This document shows, one piece after another, positions 7,067 to 25,074 of a stretch of 64,000 bases of DNA. Under the pieces are notes generated by a model that worked only from the letters and a program-made list of their open reading frames with translations, was not told the DNA's origin and did not search any database. Numbering within the stretch: the first letter of the stretch is position 1; each line of letters starts with the position of its first letter. The stretch comes from Blautia parvula (GTDB lineage Bacteria; Bacillota; Clostridia; Lachnospirales; Lachnospiraceae), in contig NZ_CP084061.1 in the NCBI RefSeq assembly GCF_020215665.1, positions 5,740,501 to 5,804,500 on the forward strand, given 5' to 3'. Position numbers and translations under genes: made by a program.

Positions 7067-7897
7067 CACCATACAATTAAATAAAAAGCAAAAGACGAAG
7101 CCTAAAACCGTGGGAATGAGAAATGCCAAAAACGTCCATTTCAAACTGTGTGTTTCCTTTTTGATGGTGAGAAGTGTGGTGGCGCAGGGCCAGTGCATGA
7201 GTGTGAACAAAAGCATGGAAACAGCAGTAAAACAGGTCCAGCCGTTTTGTACAAGCAAAGTGTGCAGGGTTGCAAGACTGCCGGAATCGGTCAGTGTCCC
7301 CTGTGCCGTGTAAGCCATGATCATGATGGGTACCACGATCTCATTGGCCGGCAGTCCAAGGATGAAAGCCAGCAGAATGATACCGTCCAGTCCCATAAGC
7401 CGTCCCACAGGTTCCAGGAATCCGGCAAAATGCAGCAGCAGGGAAGTATCCCCCACAGTTACATTTGCCAGTATCCAGATAATGAGTCCTGCAGGGGCCG
7501 CCGCGATCAGTGCCCGCCAGAGTACGTGAAGGGTGCGGTCCATAACAGAGCGCACCAGCACACGGAAGAACTGGGGCCGCCGGTAAGGCGGAAGTTCCAG
7601 CGTAAAAGAGGAGGGAACCCCCTTTAGTACTGTCTTAGACAAAAGCCAGGATGAGAAAAACGTCATGAAAATACCCAGCAGTATGGTGGCCGCCAGTAAA
7701 AGCGCAAGGGACAGGGAAGTAAAAAGCCCGGTGCCGGCGGCAAAGAACATGGTGAGAACAGCTAAAATAGTGGGAAATCTTCCGTTGCAGGGAACCAGGC
7801 TGTTGGTCAGTATGGCGATCAGGCGCTCCCTGGGGGAGTCTATGATACGGCATCCGGTGACACCCGCTGCGTTGCATCCAAAGCCCATGCACATGGT
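7052..7897 (-). pseudogene. feoB: FeoB ferrous iron transporter, C-terminal fragment (gene interrupted)
   Basis: This is the C-terminal ~281 residues of the GTP-driven ferrous iron transporter FeoB. It opens with MCMGFGCNAAGVTGCRIIDSPRER and NSLVPCNGRFP, the conserved first gate region, and continues through the second gate (LILAFILGLPANEIVVPIMIMAY-like segment) and final helices. There is no G domain. The missing front half lies on the same strand at 24023-25074. The two join in frame at a shared 8-bp repeat to give CGKQALTM-CMGFGCN. As it stands this part has no promoter or ribosome site of its own, so the transporter is presumably off unless the 16-kb element is excised. Confidence 0.93.
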
Positions 7898-7913
7898 TGG
7901 TCAAGATCAGGAT
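7890..7913. other. attL: left attachment junction
   Basis: The 8-bp core CACATGGT (7890-7897) is followed inside the element by an arm TGGTCAAGATCAGGAT (7898-7913). That arm is the imperfect inverse of the arm at the other end (24005-24020; 13 of 16 match), as expected for the two sides of an excised attP site. Confidence 0.75.
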
Positions 7914-7988
7914 TTTTTGATATCTGCGGAGCATAACTTTTTTCTGTATGCGGTAGAATAAGTAAAAACAGAGAAAGGAAGCAGGAAA

Positions 7989-8831
7989 ATGAAAAGAAAT
8001 ACACAGAAAATTCTGGGAGAATATGAAGAACATTTGCTGTATCAGGAACGCAGCCAGAAGACTGTTGAGAAATACATCCGTGATCTGCGCGCCTTTTTTA
8101 CGTTTCTGGATGGGAAGAAAATGGACAAAGAAGCAGTTCTGAGATGGAAGGAAAAGCTGAGAGAAACTCATGCGCCTGTCAGTATTAATTCTATGCTGGC
8201 CGCTGTGAACAGCTATCTGGAATTTGCAGGTATGCCGCAGATGAAGGTAAAGCCGCTGAAAGTACAGAGGGAGATCTTTTCCAGACCGGAAAAAGAACTG
8301 ACCCGTGAGGAGTATGTGCGTCTTGTAAAAGCAGCAGATCAGAAGGGAAACAGAAGGCTCTCCCTTTTGCTGCAGGCTATCTGTGCGACGGGGATTCGTG
8401 TATCGGAGCTTCAGTACATTACGAAAGAAGCCCTGAGTACGGGACAGGCATTCGTAGCGTGTAAAGGAAAAAGCCGTACCGTTTTTCTGCACCGGGATTT
8501 ATGCCGCGCGCTTCGGAGTTACTGCAAAGAGACCGGTATTGAGAGCGGTCCCGTTTTCCGCACAAAAAGCGGCAGACCTCTGGACAGGAACAATATATGG
8601 AGAGATATGAAATCTCTGTGCCAAAGTGCCGGGGTGGAGCCGAAAAAGGTGTTTCCCCATAATCTGCGCCATCTGTTTGCAAAGGCTTATTATATGCTGG
8701 AGAAGGATTTGGTAAAACTGGCGGATTTATTAGGGCACGCAAATATTTCCACGACACGTATCTATACAATGGAAAGCGGAAGAGAACATTTAAGACAGCT
8801 TGAAATGATGAAGCTTGTTATCACTACATGA
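7989..8831 (+). CDS. Tyrosine recombinase, likely DNA invertase for the adjacent switch
   Basis: A 280-residue phage-integrase-family recombinase. The N-terminal SAM-like DNA-binding part (YEEHLLYQERSQKTVEKYIRDLRAFFTFL) is followed by the catalytic domain. That domain carries the first arginine in ATGIRVSEL, the HNLRH box (HxxR), LADLLGHANISTTRIYT with the second histidine, and the tyrosine nucleophile. The size fits Xer/RecV/FimB-type enzymes and it lacks the extra arm-binding domain of ICE integrases. Nine bases after its stop begins one of two perfect 18-bp inverted repeats, so its likely job is to flip the segment 8858-9131. It could also help element mobility, but the serine recombinase is better placed for that. 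Confidence 0.88.
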   Translation: MKRNTQKILGEYEEHLLYQERSQKTVEKYIRDLRAFFTFLDGKKMDKEAVLRWKEKLRETHAPVSINSMLAAVNSYLEFAGMPQMKVKPLKVQREIFSRPEKELTREEYVRLVKAADQKGNRRLSLLLQAICATGIRVSELQYITKEALSTGQAFVACKGKSRTVFLHRDLCRALRSYCKETGIESGPVFRTKSGRPLDRNNIWRDMKSLCQSAGVEPKKVFPHNLRHLFAKAYYMLEKDLVKLADLLGHANISTTRIYTMESGREHLRQLEMMKLVITT

Positions 8832-8839
8832 ATTGACTG

Positions 8840-8857: not shown

Positions 8858-8993
8858 ATCATGCACCTGGAATCCTCAATGAAAGTTACATAGTGATATT
8901 CTAACATACCTGGTTAAGAAAAACAAATATTTGATCCGCCGGCTTATTTTCTGCCGGTTTTAGACGCCTGATGTATAAGAGAACATGGAAAAA

Positions 8994-9604: not shown

Positions 9605-9717
9605 TCATGGCAGTATCGCAAACTTGTAATGGAAAATCAAACAGGATAGCTTACAATGGAAATATCAGCAGAAGCGGAATAGGCAGCAGCTATGCATAGT
9701 TTGAAAGGAGATTGACA

Positions 9718-12084
9718 ATGCGGTTTACAGACGGATTATGGGAGTCGAGAAACGGATATAAGCTTCACAGGGCCCATTCCCTGTGGGAGTGGAGGGCAGA
9801 GAAGGATCAGGTGCATTTCATGGTGCCCTGTACGGAGATACGGTCACTCAGGGATACGATAGTCGGACCGGTCCTTCATTTTACCATCACTGCCCCGAAA
9901 GCGGACATACTGGCTGTCAAGGTCTATCATTTTACAGGCAAAAAGGAGTGCGGGCCATACTTTGACCTGGATGTTTCCAATCGGGAGATGGAAGTATGCG
10001 AGAAGGAGCAGGAGATCACTGTAACTAACGGCAGAATGAAAGCAGTGGTAAGGAAAACTGGAGATTTTGGGATCGCTTTTTATTTCGACGGACGTTTCCT
10101 TACAAGATGCGGGGAAAAGGGAACGGCTTATGTCACAGACGCGGAATATGAGGCAGATAAGCTGTGTGACTATAATGGAAGAAACGGCAGAAGCAGCCAA
10201 AACGAAAACTATATTCGGGAAATGCTGAGTCTGGATGTGGGAGAATATATCTACGGCCTGGGAGAGCGCTTTACTTCCTGTATCAGGAACGGGCAGTCTG
10301 TTGACTGCTGGAACCGTGACGGGGGTTCCAACGGAAATCAGGCTTATAAGAATATTCCCTTTTATCTGTCCAGCAAAAGCTACGGTGTATTTGTAAATAC
10401 CCCTGCCAGAGTGGGCTTTGAGGTGGCCAATGTGAGTGTGCGCCACGTGGAGATCGCAGTGCAGGAGGAGGAACTGGAGTATATGGTGATCGGGGGCAGC
10501 GAACCGAAAGAGGTTCTGTCAAATTACACGGCCCTCACGGGAAGGACACCGATTCCCCCTGCCTGGACCTACGGCCTGTGGCTCTCCACAAGCTGGATGC
10601 CGGATTCAGACGCGCAGATCACACTGGATACCATTGACAAGATGAAAGAATATGACATTCCACTGTCCGTGTTTCATTTTGACGCGCGCTGGATGGATGA
10701 TTTTAAATGCTGTGATTTTGTCTGGTCAAAACGGTTCGGGGATGCCAAAAAGCTGCTGGATGCCATCCATGAAAGAGGCGTGAAGGTCTGTGTGTGGATC
10801 AACCCATATATAAGCCAGGAGTCTTATCTGTTCCGGGAGGGTAAAGACAAGGGTTACTTTTTGAAGACAAAGGATGGGGATGTGTGGCAGTCCGATAACT
10901 GGATGTCAGGGATCGCAATTGTGGATTTTACAAATCCTGAAGCGGTACGCTGGTATCAAAGCAAACTGGGAGCCCTGCTGGATATGGGAGTGGATGCACT
11001 GAAGACGGATTTCGGAGAGCGGATTCCAACGAATGTGGTCTATTTTGACGGTTCAGATCCTGCGAAAATGCATAATTATTATCCCTATCTCTATAATCAG
11101 GCGGTTTATGAGCTGATTCAGGAGAAGAAGGGGGAGGGATGCGTATTTTCCAGATCTGCTACGGCCGGAACCCAGAAATTCCCCTTTAACTGGGGCGGGG
11201 ATAATGAAGCTTCCTATATTTCCATGGCGGAAAGTCTGAGGGGCGGTCTGTCACTCTGCCAGTCAGGGTACGGGTATTGGGCCCACGATATCAGCGGATT
11301 CTGCAGGACAGCAACACCGGACCTGTATAAACGATGGGTGCAGTTCGGAATGCTGTCCACGCACAGCAGGCTTCACGGGGAGCAGAGCTACCGGGCACCC
11401 TGGTATTTTGACGAGGAGTCCTGCAGGGTACTGAAGGCGTTTACGAACCTGAAATGCAGGCTGATGCCTTATCTGTACAGCGGAAGTGTGCAGGTATTGG
11501 AGGAGGGAGTTCCCCTGATGAGGGCCATGATGCTGGAGTTCCCACAGTGTCCCACTTCTCTGCATCTGGAGCGCCAGTATATGCTTGGAAGTGACCTTTT
11601 GGCTGCCCCTATTTTCAATGAAGAGGGCCAGGCGGAGTTTTTCCTGCCGGGAAATGGGTGCTGGACCAATTATCTGGACGGCGAAATCCTGGAGGGCGGC
11701 AAGTGGTACAGACGGAATTATGATTATTTCCATATGCCGCTGTTTGTCCGTCCGGGAACCATTCTCCCGGTGGGCGCAGAGGAGGATACTCCGGTCTATG
11801 ATTACGCGGATGGGGTGACGTTTCAATTGTATGAAATACCCGAAGCGTTTGAAAAGGACTGCAGGGTCTATAATACCTCAGGGGAGCCGGTCCTTAAGCT
11901 GAATGTGAAACGCATGGGAGAAAATATAACATTGGAGCTGCAGGGGCAGGCAGAACATGTCTTTGTACAGCTCATGCATGTCAATGACATCAGATGTGAC
12001 GGGGAAGTACGGAGAGAGAAATGTGAAAATGGTATCCGCTTCGAGATGCGGGAAGGTATCCTGGAATTTGCATTGCAATCATAA
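9718..12084 (+). CDS. yicI: GH31 alpha-xylosidase (YicI-like)
   Basis: A 788-residue cytoplasmic glycoside hydrolase of family 31, predicted to release alpha-linked xylose from xyloglucan fragments such as isoprimeverose. It closely follows the E. coli YicI pattern. The nucleophile aspartate is in DALKTDFGERIPTNVVYFDG (about residue 431) and the acid/base aspartate in NWGGDNEASY (about 495); SMAESLRGGLS, WAHDISGF and HSRLHGEQSYRAPW are also present. The open frame starts at a TTG (9712), but the ATG at 9718 has AAAGGAG 7 bases before it. No signal peptide, so the substrate must be imported. No xyloside transporter lies beside it on the element. Confidence 0.92.
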   Translation: MRFTDGLWESRNGYKLHRAHSLWEWRAEKDQVHFMVPCTEIRSLRDTIVGPVLHFTITAPKADILAVKVYHFTGKKECGPYFDLDVSNREMEVCEKEQEITVTNGRMKAVVRKTGDFGIAFYFDGRFLTRCGEKGTAYVTDAEYEADKLCDYNGRNGRSSQNENYIREMLSLDVGEYIYGLGERFTSCIRNGQSVDCWNRDGGSNGNQAYKNIPFYLSSKSYGVFVNTPARVGFEVANVSVRHVEIAVQEEELEYMVIGGSEPKEVLSNYTALTGRTPIPPAWTYGLWLSTSWMPDSDAQITLDTIDKMKEYDIPLSVFHFDARWMDDFKCCDFVWSKRFGDAKKLLDAIHERGVKVCVWINPYISQESYLFREGKDKGYFLKTKDGDVWQSDNWMSGIAIVDFTNPEAVRWYQSKLGALLDMGVDALKTDFGERIPTNVVYFDGSDPAKMHNYYPYLYNQAVYELIQEKKGEGCVFSRSATAGTQKFPFNWGGDNEASYISMAESLRGGLSLCQSGYGYWAHDISGFCRTATPDLYKRWVQFGMLSTHSRLHGEQSYRAPWYFDEESCRVLKAFTNLKCRLMPYLYSGSVQVLEEGVPLMRAMMLEFPQCPTSLHLERQYMLGSDLLAAPIFNEEGQAEFFLPGNGCWTNYLDGEILEGGKWYRRNYDYFHMPLFVRPGTILPVGAEEDTPVYDYADGVTFQLYEIPEAFEKDCRVYNTSGEPVLKLNVKRMGENITLELQGQAEHVFVQLMHVNDIRCDGEVRREKCENGIRFEMREGILEFALQS

Positions 12085-12149
12085 CCGCAATCGTTTATAA
12101 TGAAAACAGTTATATAAGCTCATAATATGGTTGAGCGTTTCTACCAACT

Positions 12150-12206
12150 GCCGTAAATAGTTGATTATAATTCTTTGGATTATAGTCATCTGTTTACGGC
12201 TTTTTT
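12150..12206 (+). terminator. Intrinsic terminator after alpha-xylosidase
   Basis: A long stem starts with GCCGTAAA (12150-12157) pairing with TTTACGGC (12193-12200), with an inner GATTATAAT/ATTATAGTC pairing, followed by six T. It separates the alpha-xylosidase from the CAT-like gene. Confidence 0.8.
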
Positions 12207-12265
12207 ATTCATGCAGCAGAAAGTCCGCCGGGCGTACTTTTGGTGCTTTATTTCAGGAGGTATTT

Positions 12266-12916
12266 ATGGAAAGAAAAAAACGAATTTTAAAGGATTACAA
12301 ACGGGAAAGCCACTTTGATTATTTCAACAGTTTATCTTACCCGTACGTGGGAGTAACAGTCAATGTTGAGATAACAGATTTATTAAAAAAGGTTAAGGCA
12401 GAGAAACTGCCCTTTTTTCTCACGTTCTGCTACTGCGTGTCAAAGGCGGCAAACGGTGTCCCTGAATTCAGGCAGCGTATTGTAAATAACAGTATTGTAG
12501 AATATGAATCCTGCAGAACGTCACACACAGTGGCATTGGAGGATGGAACATACTGCTACTGTACTCTGGAAAGCAGTATGCCGTTTCCTGATTATCTGGA
12601 CTACGCTGTACGGGCGCAGGAAGCGGCAAAAAGCGAGAGGAGTATTGAGGAGGACAGGGAGGAGAGCAATGACAAAATATTTATCTCAACGCTTCCCTGG
12701 CTGACCTACACCTCGTTTATTCAGCCTGTCCCCATTCCTGCGGACAGCAATCCGAGGATCACCTGGGGAAAGTATTACAAACAGGAGGAAAAAGTCCTGA
12801 TGCCAGTATCCGTGCTGTGTAACCATGCTCTGGTTGACGGAAAACATATGGCTGATTTTTATGAGGCTCTTGACAGGGAAATCTGCGCAGTCTGCGGGCC
12901 GGTATCACTTCTCTGA
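12266..12916 (+). CDS. CatA-like (chloramphenicol acetyltransferase fold) O-acetyltransferase
   Basis: A 216-residue protein with the length and layout of trimeric chloramphenicol acetyltransferases. It has the early SHFDYFNSLSYPYVGVTVNVEIT strand, LPFFLTFCYCVSKAANGVPEFRQRI, and the catalytic histidine motif NHALVDGKHMADFYEAL near residue 190 (HxxxDG). The frame is open further upstream, but that part overlaps the terminator; the ATG at 12266 has AGGAGG 5 bases before it. Family members can acetylate chloramphenicol, but many CatA-like proteins in gut Firmicutes give no resistance. Here the gene lies in nucleoside cargo, so a metabolic or detoxifying role is equally possible. It converges on the gntR-type gene. 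Confidence 0.85.
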   Translation: MERKKRILKDYKRESHFDYFNSLSYPYVGVTVNVEITDLLKKVKAEKLPFFLTFCYCVSKAANGVPEFRQRIVNNSIVEYESCRTSHTVALEDGTYCYCTLESSMPFPDYLDYAVRAQEAAKSERSIEEDREESNDKIFISTLPWLTYTSFIQPVPIPADSNPRITWGKYYKQEEKVLMPVSVLCNHALVDGKHMADFYEALDREICAVCGPVSLL

Positions 12917-12955: not shown

Positions 12956-13717
12956 CTATTTTCGGAAAGTCAGTACCAGGTTGCAGGATTCCAGAGGGAT
13001 ATAGTGCTTGGAAGCTACCAGGGTGAGGCCGGAGTCATCGTACAGATTTTCCTGTATCATCAGAAATGTATTTTTTTCGGACAGCCTGTATTTCTGGGCC
13101 GTGAAGTTGCCTGTGTCTGATCCTCTCAGATTCAGAGTGGAGGAGACAGCATGGCTGTATACATCCTTGTTCAGAAATTGTGTCAGGCTGTCCGTGTCTG
13201 TAAAGTCAATATTGAACCTGGTAACTGTCTCGATAGGGATAAAGCTGAGGGAGTAGGCAAATGTGCTTCCCGGCTGGTCTTTATACCACCGGTCAATAAT
13301 GGCGACTACAGGGGTTTTCCTGCCGATGATATTGCTGATAAAATCCGTGGGAGGTTCCAGGCGGTATTCTGTCTCCGTCTCTGTTATGGTCTGGCCGCAT
13401 TGGAACACAGGATTGCATAGATTGGTGAAGTCTTTTACAGGCGCCTTCTTTGTTTCCTGTACAAAATTACCCTTTCCCTGTACGTTGTGGATCAGTCCGT
13501 CTTCTCTGAGCAGAGCCAGTGCCTGGCGGAGTGTCATACGGCTCACCCCCATCTTTTTAGACAGGTCCGGCTCGCTGGGGAGCTGTGATCCCCTGGGATA
13601 TTCTCCGCTCAGAATCTGGGCATAGAGCTGATCATAGACCTTTACATGCTTCAATTTTCTTGATTTTTCTTCGGACATTCCTGTTTTGGGAACCTTGTTG
13701 TCTAGTGGTTCATTCAT
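12956..13717 (-). CDS. GntR-family (HutC-type) regulator of the nucleoside operon
   Basis: A 253-residue regulator with an N-terminal winged helix (KVYDQLYAQILSGEYPRGSQLPSEPDLSKKMGVSRMTLRQALALLREDGLIHNVQGKGNFV, about residues 27-86) and a C-terminal UTRA ligand domain. The frame opens at a TTG (13738), but the ATG at 13717 has GGAGG 8 bases upstream. It is divergent from udp and the nucleoside genes across a 355-bp gap that holds palindromic sites over the operon promoter. It is therefore probably the repressor of nucleoside uptake and salvage, sensing a nucleoside or sugar phosphate. The effector is inferred from context only. Confidence 0.9.
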   Translation of the reverse strand: MNEPLDNKVPKTGMSEEKSRKLKHVKVYDQLYAQILSGEYPRGSQLPSEPDLSKKMGVSRMTLRQALALLREDGLIHNVQGKGNFVQETKKAPVKDFTNLCNPVFQCGQTITETETEYRLEPPTDFISNIIGRKTPVVAIIDRWYKDQPGSTFAYSLSFIPIETVTRFNIDFTDTDSLTQFLNKDVYSHAVSSTLNLRGSDTGNFTAQKYRLSEKNTFLMIQENLYDDSGLTLVASKHYIPLESCNLVLTFRK

Positions 13718-13997
13718 ATCATTCTCCTCCGTCGGCAATATGGTAATATCAAAATAAGATATGACAATTATACAACTTTACATTATATTAGTCAATTTGA
13801 AAACATGTACTGATTATTCAGTCAGATCTGGGTATACTGCTATGTGCTCTGCATCCTGCACTGGCTCTACACTAGGTCTGTAAAGAGTAACATGTCTAAT
13901 ATTTGACGGATAAATGTAAGCACCTTAACAGATGAAGTTGTAATATATGCACAAAATTAGCGGATAAATATTGTATATATTATGCATAGTAATTTGA

Positions 13998-14072: not shown

Positions 14073-14840
14073 ATGAATTACGCAGAAGAGGGTGTGCAGT
14101 ATCATCTGAATATAAGGAAAGGGGATGTGGGAAGATATGTGCTTCTTCCGGGAGACCCTAAGAGATGCAGTAAGATCGCGGCATACTTTGACAACCCTGT
14201 ACTGGTGGCAGACAGCAGAGAATATGTGACATATACGGGATATCTGGACGGAGAAAAAGTCAGCGTCACATCAACGGGAATCGGCGGGCCGTCAGCGTCC
14301 ATCGCCATGGAAGAACTTGTAAAGAGCGGGGCAGATACCTTCATCCGTGTGGGCACATGCGGCGGTATGGATGTAAATGTAAAGGGCGGAGACATTGTGG
14401 TTGCCACAGGCGCCATCCGCATGGAAGGTACCAGCAAAGAATATGCCCCCATTGAATACCCGGCGGTCGCTGATTTCGGCGTGGCCAACGCGCTGGTAAA
14501 AGCAGCCCAAAACTGCGGATATGAGTATCACGCAGGAGTTGTGGAGTGCAAGGATGCATTTTACGGACAGCATGAGCCGGAGACAAAGCCGGTCAGCTAC
14601 GAATTGATGAACAAATGGGAGGCATGGCTGAGACTTGGCTGCAAGGCTTCAGAGATGGAGTCGGCCGCACTGTTTGTGGTTGCCAACTACCTGAGAGTGC
14701 GCTGCGGTTCCAATTTCCTGGTAGTAGCCAATCAGGAACGTGAGAAACAGGGGCTTTCCAATCCGGTGGTCCATGATACGGATGCTGCTATCAAGGTGGC
14801 TGTGGAAGCGCTGAGAATATTGATCCGGGAAGATAAATAA
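14073..14840 (+). CDS. udp: Uridine phosphorylase
   Basis: A 255-residue cytoplasmic nucleoside phosphorylase that splits uridine with phosphate into uracil and ribose-1-phosphate. Visible signatures are [14 protein letters not shown] (phosphate site), [25 protein letters not shown], and the C-terminal [20 protein letters not shown]. The start has AAGGAGG at the correct spacing. It opens an eight-gene operon (udp-nupOPQN-deoB-deoC-cdd). Together these genes take in nucleosides, deaminate cytidine, phosphorolyse pyrimidine nucleosides, and feed the pentose phosphate to deoB and deoC. Confidence 0.95.
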
Positions 14841-14905
14841 CGCAGAAGGCTGGAATCCCACACAAGAGAGGGGAGAGGCTGAAACACGGCGGAGGAGGTT
14901 TTTAA

Positions 14906-16438
14906 GTGGAGCAGTATGTAATTGAAATGGAACATATCACCAAGGAATTCGGCAGTTTCAAGGCAAATGACGACATTACGCTGAAACTGAAAAAAGGTGA
15001 GATTCACGCGCTGCTGGGCGAAAACGGTGCAGGAAAGTCCACCCTGATGAGTGTACTGTTCGGGCTGTACCAGCCGGAGCAGGGAACGATCAGGATGAAC
15101 GGAAAGCCTGTGACAATCAATAACCCGAACGATGCCAATGCGCTGGGAATCGGAATGGTACATCAGCATTTTAAACTGGTACATAATTTTACGGTGCTGG
15201 AGAGCATCGTGCTCGGACATGAATCGGTAAAACACCGTTTTCTGAAAATGGATGAGGCCAGAAAAAAGGTGGTGGAGCTGAGCGAACGCTATAAGTTTAA
15301 AATTGACCCTGACGCTTTGATCAGCGATATCACGGTGGGAATGCAGCAGAGAGTGGAAATCTTAAAAATGCTCTACTGCGATAATGATGTCCTCATCTTT
15401 GACGAACCCACCGCTGTGCTGACACCCCAGGAGATCGATGAGCTTATGAAAGTCATGAAACAGTTGGTATCCGAAGGAAAATCCATTCTGTTCATCACAC
15501 ACAAGCTGGCTGAGATAAAGGCGGTGGCAGACCGCTGTACCGTACTTAGAAAAGGACGCTGTATCGGAACCATTGATGTGGCAGGTGCCAGCAAGGAGGA
15601 GATGTCCGAAATGATGGTAGGCCGCAAAGTGGACTTTGTCGTGGAGAAGAAAGAAATGAAGCCTCTGGGAACAGCGCTCTCGGTTCGTGATATGACGATC
15701 CGCTCCAAACGTACAGGCAAAAATGTGGTGGACCATGTATCCTTTGAGGTGAAGAAGGGAGAGATCGTCTGCATTGCAGGAATTGACGGCAATGGCCAGT
15801 CAGAGCTTGTCTACGGGATCACCGGGCTTATGGGGATCGACGAGGGTCAGGTGTTTCTGAATGGTAAGGATATCACAAAAGAAAGTATCCGCAGAAAATG
15901 TCTGGACGGTGTGGCCCATATTCCTGAGGACAGGCACAAGCATGGAATGGTTCTGGATTACACACTGAAGGAGAATCTGATCCTCCAGAATTATTACACC
16001 CCGCAGTTTGATAAGCATGGATTTTTAAGATTTGATGAAATCGACAAATATGCGGAGAAGCTCATAGAGCGTTATGATATCAGAAGTGCCCACGGCGCGG
16101 AGTCCATTGCCAGAGGCATGTCAGGCGGCAATCAGCAGAAGGCAGTGATCGCCAGGGAGCTGGACAGAAACCCGGAGATCGTGATCGCGGTCCAGCCGGT
16201 CCGCGGCCTTGATGTGGGGGCCATAGAATATATACACAGACAGATCATAGCACAGAGAGATGCCGGGAAAGCAGTTCTTTTAGTATCCTTTGAGCTGGAT
16301 GAGGTCATGAATGTCAGTGACAGGATACTTGTCATGTATGAAGGGAAGATTGTTGCGGATGTGAAGCCGGAAGATGTGACGATCCAGGAACTGGGGCTTT
16401 ATATGGCCGGAACAGGAAAGGGGGATGCAGCATGTTAA
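14906..16438 (+). CDS. nupO: Nucleoside ABC transporter, ATP-binding protein
   Basis: A 510-residue duplicated ABC ATPase like B. subtilis NupO (YufO), which energises nucleoside import. The first domain has Walker A GENGAGKSTL, signature SDITVGMQQRVEIL and Walker B VLIFDEPTAVL. The second has a degenerate Walker A (GIDGNGQSEL), signature ARGMSGGNQQK, and Walker B IVIAVQPVRGLD lacking the usual DEP. That asymmetry is normal in this family. The start is GTG with a GGAGGAGG site upstream. It overlaps the next permease gene by 7 bases. Confidence 0.93.
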   Translation: MEQYVIEMEHITKEFGSFKANDDITLKLKKGEIHALLGENGAGKSTLMSVLFGLYQPEQGTIRMNGKPVTINNPNDANALGIGMVHQHFKLVHNFTVLESIVLGHESVKHRFLKMDEARKKVVELSERYKFKIDPDALISDITVGMQQRVEILKMLYCDNDVLIFDEPTAVLTPQEIDELMKVMKQLVSEGKSILFITHKLAEIKAVADRCTVLRKGRCIGTIDVAGASKEEMSEMMVGRKVDFVVEKKEMKPLGTALSVRDMTIRSKRTGKNVVDHVSFEVKKGEIVCIAGIDGNGQSELVYGITGLMGIDEGQVFLNGKDITKESIRRKCLDGVAHIPEDRHKHGMVLDYTLKENLILQNYYTPQFDKHGFLRFDEIDKYAEKLIERYDIRSAHGAESIARGMSGGNQQKAVIARELDRNPEIVIAVQPVRGLDVGAIEYIHRQIIAQRDAGKAVLLVSFELDEVMNVSDRILVMYEGKIVADVKPEDVTIQELGLYMAGTGKGDAAC

Positions 16439-17529
16439 AACAAAAGAATAAGAAGGGAAATGAGGGAGTGGAAAGTTTTCTCTCCTCCGTGCTGGCGGTG
16501 GCAGCGGGGCTGCTGTTCGGACTGTTTATCCTTCTGATCACCAACTCCAATGAAATGTTTTCCGGTTTCCTCACGATTTTACAGGGCGGATTTGTGGACG
16601 GCATGAGCGGGATATCCCAGACTCTTTATCTGGCAACCCCCATTGTGATGACAGGACTTTCTGTTGGGTTTGCCTGGAAGACAGGGCTGTTTAACATAGG
16701 CGCATCCGGGCAGTTTACCGTGGGAGCCTATGTGGCGGTTCTCATTGGCGTGAAGTGCACCGGACTTCCGGGCAGTATCCACTGGCTGATCGCAATCTTA
16801 GGCGCAGCCGCGGCCGGTGCGTTGTGGGGCCTGGTGCCGGGATTTTTAAAGGCTGTGGCAAATGTAAATGAAGTGATCTCCTCTATCATGATGAATTATA
16901 TCGGCCTTTATCTGACAAACCTGCTGATCACAAAGACGGTCTACGACCAGACTGGCAACCAGAGTGTTTCGGTTGCGAAGACCGCTTATCTGCCAAAGGC
17001 AGGTCTGGACAAGCTTTTTCCGGAGGCCAATCTGAATATCGGAATCCTCATCGCAGTCCTGTTCGTGGTGGGAATGTACATATTGATCAATAAGACGGCG
17101 TTCGGGTATGAGCTGAAAGCCTGCGGCAAGAACCCGGATGCCAGCCGTTATGCAGGCATCAATGCCAGAAAGAATATCATACTGTCCATGGTTATTGCGG
17201 GCGCACTTTCAGGTGTTGGCGGAGCACTTTTATACCTGTCTGATTTCGGAAAGCATATGCAGGTGCTGGATGTGATCGCGTCTCAGGGATTTTCAGGAAT
17301 ATCCGTTGCACTTTTGGGATTGTCCAATCCTTTCGGCATTCTGTTAGCCAGCCTCTTTATTGCACATATCACCATAGGCGGCTATAATCTTCAGCTTTTG
17401 AGCTTTACCCCTGAACTGATAGATATCATCATTTCCGCTATTATATACTTTGGGGCATTTTCCCTGCTGTTTAAGACATTTATCCGCAGATGGACGAAGA
17501 AATCGAAAAGGGAGGAGACAGCATCATGA
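16432..17529 (+). CDS. nupP: Nucleoside ABC transporter, permease 1
   Basis: A 365-residue membrane permease of the BPD_transp_2 type, similar to NupP (YufP). About nine to ten helices are visible. The family motif GLSVGFAWKTGLFNIGASGQF (about residues 75-95) is followed by VNEVISSIMMNYI, and FGYELKACGKNPDASRYAGIN marks the cytoplasmic coupling loop. It overlaps nupO by 7 bases and nupQ by 4 bases (ATGA), so the three are translationally coupled. It forms the pore with NupQ. Confidence 0.93.
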   Translation: MLKQKNKKGNEGVESFLSSVLAVAAGLLFGLFILLITNSNEMFSGFLTILQGGFVDGMSGISQTLYLATPIVMTGLSVGFAWKTGLFNIGASGQFTVGAYVAVLIGVKCTGLPGSIHWLIAILGAAAAGALWGLVPGFLKAVANVNEVISSIMMNYIGLYLTNLLITKTVYDQTGNQSVSVAKTAYLPKAGLDKLFPEANLNIGILIAVLFVVGMYILINKTAFGYELKACGKNPDASRYAGINARKNIILSMVIAGALSGVGGALLYLSDFGKHMQVLDVIASQGFSGISVALLGLSNPFGILLASLFIAHITIGGYNLQLLSFTPELIDIIISAIIYFGAFSLLFKTFIRRWTKKSKREETAS

Positions 17530-18479
17530 ACATTATCTATTTTTTGATACAGCAGACCATGTTTTTTTCCATTCCCCTTTTGATCGTGGCATTGGGCGGA
17601 ATGTTCTCTGAGCGAAGCGGCGTGATCAATATCGCTCTGGAAGGTATTATGGTTATGGGTGCGTTTATCAGCATTGGGTTTATCAATGTATTTCAGGACC
17701 GTTTGAGCGGGCAGGGGCTGTTTCTGCTGGCATTTTTAGTGGCTGCGGTAGCAGGCGCTTTATTCTCTCTGCTCCATGCGTTTGCCTCCGTCAATCTGAA
17801 AGCAGACCAGACGATCAGCGGTACGGCACTGAATATGTTTGCACCGGCCTTTGCTCTTTTTATGGCGAGAATGGTACAGGGAAAATCCCAGGTTCCTTTT
17901 ACGGATACCTTCCATATTGAAAAGGTGCCGGTTCTGGGAGATATTCCGGTTATTGGGCCTATGTTCTTCCAGAACTGCTATCTATCCACTTACATTGGAA
18001 TACTGATCTTTATTGCAGCCTCCGTTCTGATCAGCAGGACCAGGTTCGGTCTTCGGCTGCGTGCCTGCGGCGAGCATCCCCAGGCAGCGGACTCTGTGGG
18101 AATCAATGTGTATAAGATCAGATATGCGGGGGTTTTGATCTCCGGTGTCCTTGCAGGTGTGGGCGGACTGATCTTCGTGATACCGACTTCCACCAATTTT
18201 AATGCAAGCGTGGCAGGATACGGTTTCCTGGCACTGGCAGTGCTGATTTTTGGTCAGTGGAGGACTAAGGGGATTCTGGGTGCGGCGTTTTTCTTCGGTA
18301 TTTTGAAGACACTTGCCAGCGCGTACTCAGGGATTCCGGTCATCAAGGACCTGCCCATACCCAATGAGATCTATAAAATGCTGCCGTATGTGGTCACACT
18401 GATCGTACTTGCCTTTTCTTCCGGCAAATCAAAAGCTCCGAAGGCGGAAGGCATTCCATATGACAAAGGAAGCAGATAG
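17526..18479 (+). CDS. nupQ: Nucleoside ABC transporter, permease 2
   Basis: A 317-residue membrane permease paralogous to the preceding one. It shows GGMFSERSGVINIALEGIMVMGAF near the start and FGLRLRACGEHPQAADSVGIN as the coupling loop. The open frame begins at 17490, inside nupP, but the ATG at 17526 overlaps the nupP stop and has GGAGG 10 bases upstream, so it is chosen. It ends 14 bp before the binding-protein gene. Confidence 0.93.
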   Translation: MNIIYFLIQQTMFFSIPLLIVALGGMFSERSGVINIALEGIMVMGAFISIGFINVFQDRLSGQGLFLLAFLVAAVAGALFSLLHAFASVNLKADQTISGTALNMFAPAFALFMARMVQGKSQVPFTDTFHIEKVPVLGDIPVIGPMFFQNCYLSTYIGILIFIAASVLISRTRFGLRLRACGEHPQAADSVGINVYKIRYAGVLISGVLAGVGGLIFVIPTSTNFNASVAGYGFLALAVLIFGQWRTKGILGAAFFFGILKTLASAYSGIPVIKDLPIPNEIYKMLPYVVTLIVLAFSSGKSKAPKAEGIPYDKGSR

Positions 18480-18493
18480 GAGGGTATAAGAGA

Positions 18494-19591
18494 ATGATGA
18501 AAAAAGTGATAAGTCTGTTTCTGGCGGCAGCGCTTTGTGCATCCCTGACAGGATGCGGGCTGGGCGCAAAGCAGGCGGCAAAGGTCAGCAGCGGAAAAGG
18601 CGCGGAGCTGGCCCTGAGTACAGACGTGGGAAGCATTGATGACCGTTCTTTCAACCAGGGATCATGGGAAGGACTTGCAAAATATTCGGAGGAATTCGGC
18701 ATTACCCATAAGTATTATCAGCCCACTGAGAAATCAGATGAGGCATTTACCACCTCCATCAATCTGGCGGCAAAAGGCGGCGCCAAGGTGGTGGTGTGTC
18801 CGGGGTATCTGTATGAGATTCCCATCCACACCATGCAGCAGAAGCACCCGGAGGTGAAGTTCATAATTTTGGACGGGACGCCTCATTCCGCAGATTCTGC
18901 AGAACCGGATATCGGGGAGAATACAGCGTCCATCTATTTTGCGGAGGAGCAGGCGGGTTTTCTGGCAGGTTATGCGGCGGTCTATGAAGGCTGCACAAAA
19001 CTGGGATTTATGGGCGGGATTGCAGTTCCGGCGGTTATCCGTTATGGCTATGGATTTATTCAGGGCGCGGACTACGCGGCAAAAGAAAAAGGCATGGCTC
19101 CGGGCAGTATTGATATGAAGTACACCTATGTGGGAAATTTTGAGGCATCCCCGGAGAACATGGCTAAAGCGGCATCCTGGTACAATGAGGGTACAGAGGT
19201 GATCTTCTCCTGCGGCGGCCCTGTGGGCAACTCCGTCATGAAAGCAGCGGAAAACGCAGGGAAAAAGGTGATTGGCGTGGACGTGGACCAGAGCGCAGAG
19301 TCGGAGACTGTCATGACCTCTGCCATGAAAAATCTGAGCAAAGCAGTCTATGACTATCTGACGGATTTTTATAACGGGGAATTTAAAGGCGGAGAGAGCA
19401 TTACGCTGGATGCCTCAGAGGATGGCGTGCAGCTTCCTATGGAAACTTCCAGATTTACGGTATTTACACAGGAGCAGTATGACGCCATATACGAAAAGAT
19501 AGCGGATAATGAGATCACCATTTTAAAGGATGAGGGAATCGCCGACGCGTCAGAAATAGAAGCTGAATATGTGAATGTGAAACTGATTTAA
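18494..19591 (+). CDS. nupN: BMP-family nucleoside-binding lipoprotein
   Basis: A 365-residue lipoprotein of the Bmp/Med family that binds nucleosides outside the membrane and delivers them to NupPQ. A signal peptide with lipobox LTGC (cysteine near residue 20) is followed by ALSTDVGSIDDRSFNQGSWEGL, the family hallmark, and later GFLAGYAAVYEG and GGIAVPAVIRYGYGFIQGADY. An AGGAGGG ribosome site precedes it. Its place after the permeases differs from the common order in which the binding-protein gene comes first. Confidence 0.93.
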   Translation: MMKKVISLFLAAALCASLTGCGLGAKQAAKVSSGKGAELALSTDVGSIDDRSFNQGSWEGLAKYSEEFGITHKYYQPTEKSDEAFTTSINLAAKGGAKVVVCPGYLYEIPIHTMQQKHPEVKFIILDGTPHSADSAEPDIGENTASIYFAEEQAGFLAGYAAVYEGCTKLGFMGGIAVPAVIRYGYGFIQGADYAAKEKGMAPGSIDMKYTYVGNFEASPENMAKAASWYNEGTEVIFSCGGPVGNSVMKAAENAGKKVIGVDVDQSAESETVMTSAMKNLSKAVYDYLTDFYNGEFKGGESITLDASEDGVQLPMETSRFTVFTQEQYDAIYEKIADNEITILKDEGIADASEIEAEYVNVKLI

Positions 19592-19614
19592 GAGCAGAAT
19601 AAAGGAGACAGATT

Positions 19615-20826
19615 ATGGAGAAATTCAAACGTATCTTTGTGGTTGTGCTGGATTCCCTGGGTGTAGGGGCTATGCTGGATGCGGTGCAGTTCGGAGACGC
19701 AGGTGCCAATACCCTGGGCCATATAGCGGATTACAGATACAGGAAAGGGCAGCCTCTTCGGATTCCCATCCTGGAGAAAATGGGGATAGGGAATATCCTT
19801 CCCCTTAACGGGGTTGACAGTACGCCGTCTCCTCTTGCCTATTATTCGGCCATGAGAGAGGCCGGCAGCGGAAAGGATACCATGACCGGACACTGGGAGA
19901 TGATGGGGCTTCGCACTACCAAACCCTTCCAGACTTTTACAGAGCATGGTTTTCCGGAAGAACTGATTCGTGAGCTGGAAAAGCGCACCGGAAGAAAAAT
20001 CATCGGAAATAAAAGCGCCAGCGGCACGGAGATCCTGGAGGAGCTGGGGGAGGAAGAAGTGAATGAGGGTCACCTCATTGTCTATACCTCCGCGGATTCC
20101 GTCCTGCAGATCTGCGGAAATGAGGAGACCATGGGTCTTGAGAACCTGTACCACTACTGCGAGATCGCCAGGGAGCTGACCATGCGGGAGGAATGGATGG
20201 TGGGCAGAGTGATCGCCCGCCCCTATGTAGGCAGAAAAAAAGGAGAGTTCAAACGCACGGCAAATCGTCACGATTATGCGGTGAAGCCTTTTCAGAAAAC
20301 GGTTCTGGATGCGCTGAAAGAGGCATCCTGTGATGTGATCTCTATCGGGAAGATCAAGGATATCTTCGACGGAGAGGGGATTACCCGGGCATACAAATCA
20401 AAAAGCTCCCTTCACGGGATGGAACAGACCATAGAGGCGGCGGGGAAAGAATTTCACGGACTCTGCTTTGTGAATCTGGTGGATTTTGACGCCCTGTGGG
20501 GACACAGAAGGGACGCGGAGGGATATGCCCGTGAGCTGGAACAGTTTGACGAAAAGCTGAGCGTACTGCTTGGCAGTCTGGAAAAAGAAGACCTGCTGAT
20601 CCTGACAGCGGACCACGGCAATGACCCCACATATACCGGGACGGACCACACACGGGAGAAGGTTCCGTTTCTGGCGTATTCACCTGCATTTCAGTGCGGG
20701 GGAGAGCTGGAGGAGAGCAGTGACTTTGCAAGGATCGGGGCCACCATAGCAGATAATTTTCATGTAGCAATGCCGGATGGTACTATAGGGATTTCCTGTC
20801 TGGACAAACTGACAGTATCGGAATAG
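19615..20826 (+). CDS. deoB: Phosphopentomutase
   Basis: A 403-residue metalloenzyme of the alkaline phosphatase superfamily that converts ribose-1-phosphate or deoxyribose-1-phosphate to the 5-phosphates. Motifs: [15 protein letters not shown] (first metal ligand), [13 protein letters not shown] with the phosphorylated threonine, and [25 protein letters not shown] (metal-binding Asp and His). Length is normal. It links udp to deoC within the operon; a 23-bp gap to nupN holds AAAGGAG. Confidence 0.96.
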
Positions 20827-20873
20827 AATAGAAGAATATCATGACAGTGAAAAATTATGAGGAGGATATCAGA

Positions 20874-21527
20874 ATGGAACAGAAAGAAATATTAAGTAAA
20901 GTTGACCATACACTGCTGGCGCAGACAGCTACCTGGGAGGAAATAAAGGTTATATGCGATGACGCGGTGGCTTATCAGACGGCATCTGTCTGCATACCGC
21001 CGTCTTATGTGAAACAGGCAGCAGAGTACCTGGGAGACAAAATGCCGGTATGCACAGTTATCGGCTTTCCCAATGGGTACAATACCACTGCAGTGAAAGT
21101 TTTTGAGACTGCGGACGCTGTGAAGAACGGAGCAGAGGAAATTGACATGGTCATTAACCTGGGATGGGTGAAAGAGGGCCGATATGATCTGGTTAAGGAA
21201 GAGATCCAGGCGGTTAAGAAAGCCTGCGGCGGAAAACTTCTGAAGGTCATCATTGAGACATGCCTGCTCACAGAGGAGGAGAAGATCCGCATGTGCAGAA
21301 CAGTCACAGAGTCAGACGCGGAGTACATCAAGACTTCCACGGGCTTTTCCACCCATGGGGCAACAATTGACGATGTGAAGCTTATGAGAGAACACACGGG
21401 AAGCGACAAGAAAGTAAAAGCAGCAGGAGGAATCTCCTCCTTTGCCGACGGGGAAACGTTTGTAAAACTGGGGGCGGACCGCCTTGGCACCAGCCGTCTG
21501 GTAAAGGCTGCAAAGGCACAGCAGTGA
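20874..21527 (+). CDS. deoC: Deoxyribose-phosphate aldolase
   Basis: A 217-residue class I aldolase that splits deoxyribose-5-phosphate into acetaldehyde and glyceraldehyde-3-phosphate. Motifs: KVDHTLL at the start, [31 protein letters not shown] with a reactive-site lysine, and [10 protein letters not shown] with the Schiff-base lysine. The frame begins at 20841, but the ATG at 20874 has GGAGG 8 bases upstream and matches family starts. It overlaps the upstream extension of cdd only, not its chosen start. Confidence 0.95.
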
Positions 21528-21559
21528 CAACGGGAAATAGACTGAAACGGGGTGAGATT

Positions 21560-21973
21560 ATGATTCCAGTAAAAGAACTGATCAAACAGGCGGTTAAGGC
21601 AATGGAGAACGCATACACGCCGTATTCCAATTTTAAAGTGGGGGCAGCACTCCATACACCGGAGGGGAAAATATATAAGGGCTGCAATATTGAAAATGCA
21701 TCTTATACCCCCACCAACTGCGCGGAGAGAACGGCATTTTTCAAAGCGGTCAGCGAAGGCGAGCGCGAGTTTGATGCCATCTGTATTGTGGGCGGGAAAA
21801 ATGGTGTCCTTACAGAGTACGCGGCTCCCTGCGGTGTATGCCGGCAGGTGATGATGGAATTCTGTGATCCGGAGAGTTTCCAGATAATCCTGGCCACAGA
21901 TACGGAACATTATGATATCTATACATTAAAGGAGCTGCTGCCTTTGGGATTCGGACCGGCGAATCTGGCGTGA
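21560..21973 (+). CDS. cdd: Cytidine deaminase
   Basis: A 137-residue zinc enzyme that deaminates cytidine and deoxycytidine to uridine and deoxyuridine, feeding udp. The signature CNIENASYTPTNCAERTAFFKA holds the first zinc cysteine and the catalytic glutamate (CAE), and PCGVCRQVM supplies the other two zinc cysteines. The ATG at 21560 follows a GGGGTGAG ribosome site; the open frame from 21524 is an extension without one. Last gene of the nucleoside operon, followed by a hairpin at 22066-22112. Confidence 0.96.
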   Translation: MIPVKELIKQAVKAMENAYTPYSNFKVGAALHTPEGKIYKGCNIENASYTPTNCAERTAFFKAVSEGEREFDAICIVGGKNGVLTEYAAPCGVCRQVMMEFCDPESFQIILATDTEHYDIYTLKELLPLGFGPANLA

Positions 21974-22112: not shown

Positions 22113-22241
22113 AGAATCTTTCGGGAAGAAATCCTGTTTTTGAGGTTCAGCAGATATCATACCGTACAAGCAGAGCATCATAAATTATCTATGAAGAACC
22201 TATGCATAGTTTTCTATGTAAAATGTGAGAAGGGATAGGAT

Positions 22242-22355
22242 ATGGATGAGAAAACCACAGGTATTGTTGCGGAAGTAAGATTTTCCGACGGACCCGCACT
22301 GAAGGAGCTGTTGCTGGAAATACTGACTGAGAAAATAGGAGCTGCCGACAGTTGA
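22242..22355 (+). CDS. TnpW-like 37-residue small protein
   Basis: A short frame (MDEKTTGIVAEVRFSDGP then ALKELLLEILTEKIGAADS) with an AGAAGGGATAGG site just upstream. It resembles the small TnpW-type ORFs found beside serine recombinases of Tn4451-like elements of Clostridia: a short V-x-V-x-FS strand followed by an amphipathic helix. It lies 39 bp before the recombinase and points the same way. The role of such proteins is not established. The resemblance is by pattern only and moderate. Confidence 0.55.
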   Translation: MDEKTTGIVAEVRFSDGPALKELLLEILTEKIGAADS

Positions 22356-22394
22356 TACCTGCCGCCGGAAGATTTGCTCTGAAGGGGGAATAGC

Positions 22395-24011
22395 TTGAGA
22401 AATCATATGCTGCCTGAAAACAGAAAGTATTTTGCGGCTCTCTATATGCGCCTTTCAAAAGATGATGAAGGAAAGGGCGAGAGTGCCAGTATCACTACGC
22501 AGAGAAAAATGCTCAGGGCTTACGCAGCCGAGAATCATTATCCTGTCTATGATGAGTATGTGGATGACGGCATTTCGGGCACCACCTTTGAACGCCCCGA
22601 TTTCCGGCGTATGATACGGGATATAGAAAGCGGCAGGGTCAATATGGTGATCACCAAGGATTTGTCGCGTCTGGGGCGCGATTATATTCAGACAGGACAG
22701 TATACAGAAATTTATTTTCCGACGAAAAAGGTGCGGTATATTGCCATCAATGACGGATACGATTCCGACAGCCCCTGTACGGATATCGCTCCGTTTAAAA
22801 ACATTATCAATGAGATGTACGCCAGGGACATCAGCAAAAAAATACGTTCATCCTTTACCACTCACATGCAGGAGGGGGCTTTTGTAGGTGCATTCGCTCC
22901 TTACGGCTATATGCGGGACCCTGCGGACAAACATCATTTGGTCATAGACAGGGAAGCGGCAAAGATTGTAAGGGAAATATTTCTTAAGGCTTCGGAGGGT
23001 ATCCTGCCTATTGACATTGCGCGGGAACTGAACCGGCGGATGGTGCCTACCCCTCTGGAATACCGCCGGAACCAGAGGGTGGCAGAAGAGACGGAAGAGT
23101 TTGAAAAGCGGAGAGGATGGACATCATCGACCATCACGAAAATGCTGCGCAATGTGGTATATCTGGGGCATATGGCTCAGGGAAAAACTACAAAAATATC
23201 TTTTAAAAGCCGGACTTCCGTTAAAAATCCAAAAGAAGACTGGTACGTAGTAAAACACACACATGAGCCGTTGGTCAGCCGGGAGGTATTTTCCATGGCG
23301 GGACGCAGAAGCAGACAGCGCACCTGCGCCGGGAAAGGGGAGTTTACGAATATATTTTCCGGGATTGCCAAATGCGCAGACTGCGGCAGGAATATGTCCA
23401 TTGTGGGAACAAGAAAAAGAGACGCCTCCGGGAATCTCGCCTGCGGTGCATATAAACTCTATGGGACAAAAGGGTGTACCAATCATTTTATGGATTATGA
23501 TACGCTCTGCCGTATCGTATTAACCGCTATCCAAAAGTCTGTCCGGATATCCGAACAGGAGGAGCGTGAAATTCTGGAGCATGCCCGGAAGTACCTGGAA
23601 AAACAAAATATCCAGACAGACAGGATACAAGAGCTTTCCGCCCTAAAAAAGCGCCTGCATGAGCTGGACAGACTGATCGAAAAACTCTATGAGGACCATG
23701 TGGAGGGACTGCTCAGTGAGGAGCGGATGAAGAAACTGCTGAGGAGATATGAGAGCGAGAACCGTGAGGTTTCTTTTAAGATGGAGGTTTTGAGGAGAGA
23801 TACAGGCACAGAAAAAAAGGAAGATGCCATGGAACAGCTGAGAAAGATGCTGCACGGCTTTACGGAGCCGGAGGAATTATCCAGGGAGCTGCTTTTTCAT
23901 TTTATCGACCATATTGAGATCGGGCAGGGAAGTTTCCGGGAAACGGAACAGGGGCGTATAAAGGAACAGACTGTGAGGATTTATTTCAGGTTTGGCAGGG
24001 ACATATCCTGA
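22395..24011 (+). CDS. Large serine recombinase, probable integrase/excisionase of the element
   Basis: A 538-residue serine recombinase. The N-terminal resolvase domain holds the nucleophile in ALYMRLSKDDEGKGESASITTQR, and VITKDLSRLGRDYIQTGQYTE. The recombinase domain follows (FAPYGYMRDPADKHHLVIDREAAKIVREIF). Next comes a zinc ribbon (CADCGRNMS...GTKGCTNH) and a C-terminal coiled coil (RIQELSALKKRLHELDRLIEKLYEDHVEG). I take the TTG at 22395, which has GGGGGA in place; an ATG follows at 22407. The stop overlaps the right attachment arm, 12 bp from the core repeat, so it is the best candidate for the enzyme that put the element into feoB and can remove it. Confidence 0.9.
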   Translation: MRNHMLPENRKYFAALYMRLSKDDEGKGESASITTQRKMLRAYAAENHYPVYDEYVDDGISGTTFERPDFRRMIRDIESGRVNMVITKDLSRLGRDYIQTGQYTEIYFPTKKVRYIAINDGYDSDSPCTDIAPFKNIINEMYARDISKKIRSSFTTHMQEGAFVGAFAPYGYMRDPADKHHLVIDREAAKIVREIFLKASEGILPIDIARELNRRMVPTPLEYRRNQRVAEETEEFEKRRGWTSSTITKMLRNVVYLGHMAQGKTTKISFKSRTSVKNPKEDWYVVKHTHEPLVSREVFSMAGRRSRQRTCAGKGEFTNIFSGIAKCADCGRNMSIVGTRKRDASGNLACGAYKLYGTKGCTNHFMDYDTLCRIVLTAIQKSVRISEQEEREILEHARKYLEKQNIQTDRIQELSALKKRLHELDRLIEKLYEDHVEGLLSEERMKKLLRRYESENREVSFKMEVLRRDTGTEKKEDAMEQLRKMLHGFTEPEELSRELLFHFIDHIEIGQGSFRETEQGRIKEQTVRIYFRFGRDIS

Positions 24012-25074
24012 TATCAACCATCCACATGGTGAGCGCCTGCTTACCGCAGGCACAGCACTTCTGGAAACAGTGGTCCAGATTAAAGGCTACACGGGGAAGA
24101 TACCCATAGTCCTCAAGCAGAGTAAAAAGCGGGAAGAAAATAGCCATGGGAGGGAGCATCACGCTTACCACCCAGGCTGCGACCCGATATACTCCGTAGA
24201 TCAAAACCTGACAGAGGATTTCAGGAACTCCCAGCATGAGAAGGCCGTGGTAAAAACGCGGTTCCAGCCAGAACAGCCCTTGATTCAGCAGGTCAGAGGG
24301 GACATTTGCCCCCACAATGGTGATCCAGAAAATGCAGAGCAGGAACAGGAGCATAATGGGAAACCCCGTGCATCTGCTGGTGAAAATCCGGTCCAGTTTC
24401 CTGTCCCTTCTGGCATAATCCGGATTTTCCAAAGTGACACAGGCCCTGCAGATCGCCGCGGCCTGCTGGACATAGGTGCCGCAGTATTCCGCGGAAGCGC
24501 AGCACATCTCCGCGTTTCCGCGGTAAATGTCGGGAACCGGGGAAACGGCCTCTGTGTTGGAAAGGGCATCTTCAATCCCCCCGAATATGCGTTCCAGGCC
24601 TTTCCGGCTCCTGGCCGTTATGCCGATAACAGGAATCTTCAGTTCTTTTTGGAGCCGCAGAAAGTCTATGCGGATATGCTTTTTTCTGGCCTCGTCCATG
24701 AGATTTACACACAGGAGCACATGGGGGGTGACAGCACAAATCTGGAGAACCAGATTGAGATTTCTTTCCAGACAGGTGGCATCGCAGACAGCCACCACCA
24801 CATCAGGATGGCTCTGCAGGATATAATCACGGGAAATCTCCTCCTCGCTGGAGCGGCAGGAGAGGGAATAACAGCCCGGCAAATCTACAAAACGGTATTC
24901 GCGTCCCCGATAGATCCTGTTTCCTGCGGCGCATTCCACTGTCTTACCGCACCAGTTCCCTGTATGCTGATGCATACCGGTCAGCGCGTTGAATACAGTG
25001 CTTTTGCCTACGTTGGGATTGCCGATCAATGCTATATTACGGAGGGGAACCTCCTTTTTCTTTTCTTTCTTCAG
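23986..25074 (-). pseudogene. feoB: FeoB ferrous iron transporter, N-terminal fragment (gene interrupted)
   Basis: The front half of FeoB. The G domain has G1 GNPNVGKST, G3 DLPGCYSL and G4 NLMD, followed by the cytosolic helical region and the first membrane helices (FPIMLLFLLCIFWITIVG). It ends natively at LEDYGYLPRVAFNLDHCFQKCCACGKQALT, then reads into the element and stops at 23986. The start is odd. The TTG at 25029 would cut off the first beta strand (RNIALIG), and no ATG or GTG lies between it and the upstream in-frame stop. A CTG at 25074 with AGAGGTG 7 bases upstream is my best guess. The product would be a soluble G domain with a few helices, unlikely to transport iron. Confidence 0.9.
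24005..24030. other. attR: right attachment junction
   Basis: The arm ATCCTGATATCAACCA (24005-24020) is inverse to 7898-7913 and overlaps the recombinase stop codon. It is followed by TC and the core CACATGGT (24023-24030), beyond which feoB resumes (GAGCGCC on the plus strand, encoding the ALT end of KQALT). Confidence 0.75.

Follow-up and report, generated by a model that had tools for sequence, protein, structure and literature searches.

A serine-recombinase element in a feoB gene of Blautia parvula, recurrent insertion at the same codon in relatives, and a possible role in the sporulating mother cell

The interrupted gene and its counterparts in relatives

The stretch of DNA considered here (the window) comprises 64,000 nucleotides of Blautia parvula, positions 5,740,501 to 5,804,500 of contig NZ_CP084061.1. 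Within it lies feoB, the gene of a ferrous iron transporter, cut in two by an element that encodes a large serine recombinase (LSR). An earlier note, made from the letters of the window, had described a 16.1-kb element with CACATGGT at both junctions, and the coordinates and reading frames confirm it. The pertinent features are these (aa, amino acids; ORF, open reading frame):

7890..24022: feoB-intervening element, one copy of the core included (16,133 bp)
7890..7897, plus strand: left core CACATGGT, attachment half-site
24023..24030, plus strand: right core CACATGGT
7052..7894, minus strand: C-terminal part of feoB, 280 codons
24026..25074, minus strand: N-terminal part of feoB, 349 codons, exact start codon uncertain
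25111..25392, minus strand: feoA, upstream in the same operon (PF04023)
25429..25455, minus strand: sigma-K-like promoter AC-N16-CATACTATA before feoA (a motif match)
22395..24011, plus strand: LSR, 538 aa (Resolvase, Recombinase, Zn_ribbon_recom, DUF4368)
22242..22355, plus strand: 37-aa ORF directly upstream of the LSR, candidate directionality factor
22161..22187, plus strand: conserved block before the small ORF, which also fits AC-N16-CATANNNTA

The gene is cut at one Met codon, and the 16,133 bp of the element are the distance between the two copies of that codon. On the plus strand of the window the core occurs only at the two junctions; its complement is found once more, at 23695. In its own frame, the N-terminal part ends with ...CACGKQALTM, and the C-terminal part starts with MCMGFGCNAAGV, opening with an ATG at the core. 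The frame of the N-terminal half runs on the minus strand from 24026 towards about 25074 and, in the other direction, enters the element, where it meets a stop at 23986 after a short foreign tail. Against the FeoB model TIGR00437, the C-terminal half matched the corresponding region (E 1.2e-31), scoring below the whole-protein cut-off, as expected for half a protein. When the flanks were joined by script, a single open frame of 631 residues resulted, running through CGKQALTM-CMGFGCNAAGV, so the restoration of the gene is as exact as had been claimed. The LSR, whose stop codon lies 11 bp from the right core, scored above the cut-offs of PF00239, PF07508, PF13408, and PF14287 and belongs by these to the large serine recombinase family. 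Small ORFs precede the LSR in sister elements as well.

What the earlier note made of this arrangement holds in part. The interruption by recombinase-bearing DNA is precise and looks reversible. There is no support, however, for a dependence of iron uptake as such on excision: besides the split copy the genome has three feoB genes that are intact, and uptake in general is therefore not silenced. The interrupted copy may then serve something special.

Related genomes with an uninterrupted gene, which the earlier note had suggested looking for, are readily found. Among 20 genomes of the genus, a FeoB C-terminal match at the cut-off was obtained in 10, of which seven have an intact gene (frames of 616-632 aa) and three a split one; the other ten gave no match at the cut-off. 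(G and L labels denote the genomes and loci compared, G000 being the genome of the window.) The split genes are those of the window, G008, and G009. In these relatives the halves are separated by the same kind of element, with the identical core. The cargo in G008 is that of the window minus a CatA-like gene, and G009 has the identical break with a related LSR (65%) and other cargo. That cargo (L069+L070) includes an ABC exporter with a two-component system and a hybrid histidine kinase, all named by eye.

Searches outward with the LSR, at differing cut-offs, gave matches at 9 loci (genome contigs) and in 49 of 299 genomes of the family, 24 of 392 of the order, and 4 of 391 of the class. Adjacency to feoB was checked for those matches whose loci were fetched. 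Within the fetched loci, the top-scoring LSRs lie at feoB and the weaker ones elsewhere. LSRs of one clade are adjacent to feoB or at most 1.6 kb from it in 15 genomes (the distance is 1.6 kb in G561, and the G618 locus is cut off by the end of its contig). Analyzed together with 18 other LSRs from the fetched loci, these 15 are monophyletic (support 100/99); fragments at 48-55% identity, from L013 (no feoB match) and from G137 and G194 (no locus fetched), were left out of the tree. Both halves of feoB could be located in 12 loci, the distance from Met to Met ranging from 3.1 to 19.5 kb. In all 12 the break is at one and the same Met codon, and neither frame is disrupted. An 8-bp repeat on its own is weak evidence, and it is the identical break with intact frames in every one of these loci that strengthens the case. 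They demonstrate exact insertion at one Met codon, halves that remain in frame, and a clade of LSRs tied to the site in many genomes. Junctions were assigned by eye and by frame, an automatic search for the longest repeat having given false repeats at several loci. The smallest feoB element seen (L008 4494-9737, 3.1 kb) contains, besides the LSR and a small ORF, an ORF that by eye resembles a glycosyltransferase.

The orientation of the LSR varies. It is antisense and beside the N-terminal part in G000, G008, G009, G096, and G866 but sense and on the side of the C-terminal part in the others, which suggests that the symmetry of CATG in the core may allow insertion either way round. A clade of LSRs with a short core around CATG and both orientations of insertion hints at a symmetric crossover and may be of interest to users of serine integrases. 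The LSRs of L005 and L006 are nearly identical, whereas the parts of feoB that they separate are very different, pointing to recent transfer of the element between hosts.

In some relatives, among them members of one related genus, feoB is cut more than once. The gene lies in four pieces in G404 and G498, cut three times by three different serine-recombinase elements. The break at site A separates NQHTG/NW; there is a 9-bp repeat, and the serine recombinase has 465 aa. Site B coincides with that of the window. At site C, in CNGRFP/TM, the element has inverted ends and a 545-aa serine recombinase. (The recombinases of G404 at sites A and C are confirmed by Pfam.) G561 has all three sites, spread over two contigs that do not include the first piece, and G1020 has all three on a scaffold that contains gaps and repeated segments. 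In G618 the C piece was seen, and the right side at site C was not resolved in the reading of frames. Wherever the pieces at sites A and C could be resolved, they continue one another in FeoB with frames kept, and no stop codons were found in the aligned pieces of 16 split and 12 intact sets. Two of the four pieces are only about 40 residues long, too short for any plausible function alone. The three recombinases of G404 are mutually 21-28% identical. The one at site C is 41% identical, over nearly its full length, to a recombinase inside sigK of the same genome, as against about 23% for the site-B LSR. The four-piece loci are L095+L096+L120 (G404), L097+L098+L121 (G498), and L102+L103+L126 (G561). 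The cargo in G404 includes a beta-lactamase-family protein (PF00144) and a DsbD/thioredoxin-type protein; sugar transporters accompanied by glycosidases were identified there by eye.

Contents and age of the element

Apart from the LSR and the small ORF before it, the element of the window carries a second recombinase and a set of metabolic genes:

7989..8831, plus strand: Xer-like tyrosine recombinase, 280 aa, at the left end; also in the G008 element and probably cargo
9712..12084, plus strand: GH31 alpha-xylosidase (cargo)
12090..12187, plus strand: purine riboswitch (Rfam RF00167)
12161..12916, plus strand: CatA-like acyltransferase (cargo), below the NCBIfam cut-offs; its true start is probably downstream of the riboswitch
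12956..13738, minus strand: GntR-family regulator (cargo)
14073..21973, plus strand: nucleoside-use operon (cargo), comprising uridine phosphorylase, an ABC ATPase, two permeases, a Bmp-type binding protein, deoB, deoC, and cdd

The G+C content of the element is 48.1%, resembling that of the flanks. No conjugation or relaxase genes and no phage structural genes were recognized among the ORFs and families scanned, which covered part of the ORFs of the element. Nor does a phage origin find favor: no relative of the LSR was confirmed in IMG/VR, and all phage and plasmid matches were below 60% identity. An Rfam scan for RNA that might control the split matched only the purine riboswitch in the cargo, and control by an intron or a riboswitch was set aside. 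The tyrosine recombinase was considered as the excision enzyme and rejected, since it is found in the elements of G000 and G008 but not in that of G009 (the nearest homologue in G009 lies outside the element, at 45% identity), and the element of L005 has a tyrosine integrase different from that of the window. The integrase of L005, at 282-1415, is of phage type, and L006 has a similar ORF. The LSR of the window has a sub-threshold match to XisF. The pairing of a purine riboswitch (12090-12187) with the gene of a CatA-like acyltransferase, beside an operon for nucleoside use, is unusual.

How long the gene has been split may be judged from the comparison of the window with G008, using rates of synonymous (dS) and nonsynonymous (dN) change. 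For the C-terminal part, dN/dS is 0.022 (dS 0.74), and for the N-terminal part it is 0.051 (dS 0.62). The dS of ten cargo genes ranges from 0.44 to 0.92, that of xer is 0.88, and that of the LSR is 0.86; two genes of the left flank have 1.03 and 1.14, while the short feoA is lower, at 0.14. The right flank beyond feoA is not collinear between the two genomes. One cargo ORF of 130 aa (9212-9604) has a stop in G008. By contrast with the halves of feoB, which show no stops, simulations free of constraint (0.31 changes per site in each lineage) produced 10 stops on average, and none of 400 runs was free of stops. The topology ((G000,G008),G009) was recovered with the LSR and with FeoB alike. The simplest reading is that the element was likely in feoB before the species of the window and of G008 parted and that the halves have been under selection since. 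The purifying selection on both halves is strong, provided that the insertion is older than the separation of G000 and G008, which is likely but not proved. Other comparisons are similar: dN/dS is 0.025 and 0.057 for pieces of G404 and G561, 0.05-0.13 for other split pairs, and 0.20 for the saturated pair G000/G866, against 0.055-0.28 for intact relatives. Split copies are evidently no looser than intact ones.

A proposed role in sporulation

The operon of the window may belong to a sporulating cell. In C. difficile, feoA-feoB (CD1518-CD1517) is reported within the sigma-K regulon, with a ratio of 0.05 in a sigK mutant and a sigma-K promoter (PMC3789822). The pattern AC-N14-18-CATANNNTA was therefore sought before feoA. 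It was found in 8 of the 12 split loci scanned (G000, G008, G009, G404, G498, G1020, G1021, and G096), beginning 32-64 nt ahead of the extrapolated start of feoA; the contig of G561 lacks the start of the operon. Among intact loci, L017, L022, L023, L024, and L029 have a box near the start, and L021 has one 302 nt before feoB. For the three other feoB genes in the genome of the window, the 3.0-3.7 kb examined, which take in the start and 1.5-2.0 kb of upstream sequence, contain no match; one of the three has a match downstream. YabG could not serve as a control for the promoter, being absent from 24 of 24 genomes, and dpaA, a sigma-K gene in C. difficile, was used instead; the box precedes it in 6 of 12 loci, including those of G000, G008, and G009. 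The motif is short and so lends support rather than proof. Genes for sigma-K and SpoIVA are present in the genome of the window, and in five of the genomes with a split feoB (G404, G1021, G561, G866, and G1020) sigK is itself interrupted. At these sigK loci (L162, L163, L164, L165+L166, and L170) the intervening DNA is a skin-type element with a serine recombinase, which was checked by Pfam in G404.

From sequence comparison, then, the element would be of the skin/SPbeta/gin type, a gene-intervening element that has a serine recombinase, occupies a mother-cell copy of feoAB, and is excised in the sporulating mother cell. We put the probability of this at roughly 0.6. By this hypothesis the LSR would excise the element in the mother cell, probably with the help of the small protein encoded beside it; sigma-K RNA polymerase would then transcribe an intact feoAB, and feoB would be translated whole. 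The genome of the forespore would keep the element with its nucleoside-use cargo, so that neither would be lost to the lineage. Such a gene would be a harmless harbor, which would account for the presence of other serine-recombinase elements in feoB as well. It is perhaps an even bet that clostridial mother-cell feoAB is a shared harbor for excisable DNA, with at least three sites and up to three occupied at once, and that programmed excision of DNA with metabolic cargo gates the uptake of ferrous iron by the mother cell.

Perhaps the element is instead an ordinary site-specific mobile element, whose LSR targets a conserved sequence in a gene made dispensable by its paralogues and whose insertions are too recent for the halves to have decayed. 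The three other intact feoB genes are in keeping with this, as are the several independent gains on the feoB tree and the pair L005/L006, where near-identical LSRs in strongly differing genes show that some insertions are recent. Dispensable fragments would be expected to decay, however, and in the clade of the window the shared split and cargo look about as old as the separation of the species. With dN/dS at 0.02-0.05 for the halves of the window and G008, at the two low values given for G404/G561, and at a level like that of intact pairs for the other split pairs, we consider this explanation unlikely. It is also conceivable that the two halves are made as separate proteins that work in trans, since both are open frames, the C-terminal half starts with ATG at the core, and elements in the other orientation place that half close behind the LSR gene, where it could be cotranscribed. 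No ribosome-binding site was seen by eye before the C-terminal half inside the element of the window, nor in G008 or G009, and this idea would have little to offer a gene in four pieces, two of them of about 40 residues; it seems very improbable.

The proposal of the earlier note, that the element is a switch thrown in growing cells by iron or stress, has in its favor that the gene encodes a ferrous iron transporter and that excision would be precise. Excision in growing cells would nonetheless risk loss of the element and its cargo, and the promoter-like sequence is of the sigma-K type. A scan for Fur-type boxes before feoA found none clearly better than shuffled sequence (the best match of G008 had 3 mismatches, the lowest number its shuffles reached), and an iron switch acting through Fur was set aside. 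A switch of this kind is distinctly unlikely.

A number of observations weigh against excision in the mother cell. The sigma-K-like box was not found in split G866, G052, and L008, nor at several other intact loci (some with little upstream DNA), nor at 6 of the 12 dpaA loci. The pattern is loose, being present in 6.7% of shuffled 350-nt windows, and its 16-nt form matches three times in the window where 1.2 are expected. CD1517 is a putative counterpart of the FeoB of the window, and in C. acetobutylicum feoA and feoB are reported in a transitional, iron-related cluster (PMC2530871). In the genus of the window sigK is intact, and spoIVA is present in 22 of 23 genomes irrespective of whether feoB is split. 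A conjugative-type element in the same genome likewise has the conserved block ahead of its LSR, so the block is no signature of sporulation. The junction of an element circle was not found in IMG/VR, and neither an excised circle nor a joined feoB of the same species was seen in the sequences compared. Finally, divergence is slightly lower in the element than in the left flank, and no conserved right flank was found directly past feoA, so the locus may have been shared later. On the tree of feoB C-terminal parts, which has 14 split and 12 intact genes, the split must have been gained or lost about five times, with at least three of these changes forced, indicating that the element also moves between hosts.

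Kinship with known elements

The skin elements of sigK in B. subtilis and C. difficile resemble the feoB element in having an internal serine recombinase and in allowing the gene to be rejoined exactly and in frame. CD1234, the directionality factor of skin in C. difficile, is reported to be under sigma-E and SpoIIID (PMC5025042). Unlike skin, the feoB element interrupts the gene of a metal transporter rather than a sigma factor, its cargo is metabolic, and its excision is predicted. SPbeta in spsM, vfbin in spoVFB, and vrin in spoVR likewise intervene in mother-cell genes, and spsM is described as being rebuilt by excision in the mother cell (PMC4191935). These three carry phage-related genes, however, and none was recognized in the feoB element. 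The gin element of gerE in B. cereus ATCC10987 is described as a non-phage element with a serine recombinase, a partner protein, and a 9-bp junction sequence (PMC5595907); its target is gerE, not feoB, and it has three recombinases in one element, whereas in relatives of the window three separate elements can share one gene. The gathering of many elements in feoB recalls genes used in terminal cells, whether those of the sporulation mother cell or the nif genes of heterocysts. The elements that interrupt heterocyst genes (101 of them in 38 cyanobacterial genomes, according to PMC4874684) differ in phylum, cell type, and target genes.

The kind of element is thus known, but its target, the threefold cutting of one gene, and a cargo of metabolic genes appear to be new: no report of a feoB rearrangement was found among the open-access papers listed (which leave most subscription journals outside coverage). 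If excision in the mother cell is true, feoB would be, to our knowledge, the first transporter among the few genes rebuilt by DNA excision during sporulation. It would also suggest that the mother cell makes use of ferrous iron and would tie the persistence of the element to a terminal cell type, in parallel with heterocysts.

As for the control of the LSR, a sigma-E/SpoIIID promoter in the conserved block was considered but is not relied on as evidence, the block not being enriched in the genome (8 sites versus 12 for the reversed control). Of the seven sites other than that at feoB, five are inside long ORFs, L173 is unclear, and L178 lies before the LSR of the conjugative-type element. At L179+L180 (G000:C1:6215001-6247046) there is an element that by eye resembles Tn916; it encodes a serine recombinase, and the region upstream of that gene contains the GTACAAGC block as at the feoB LSR.

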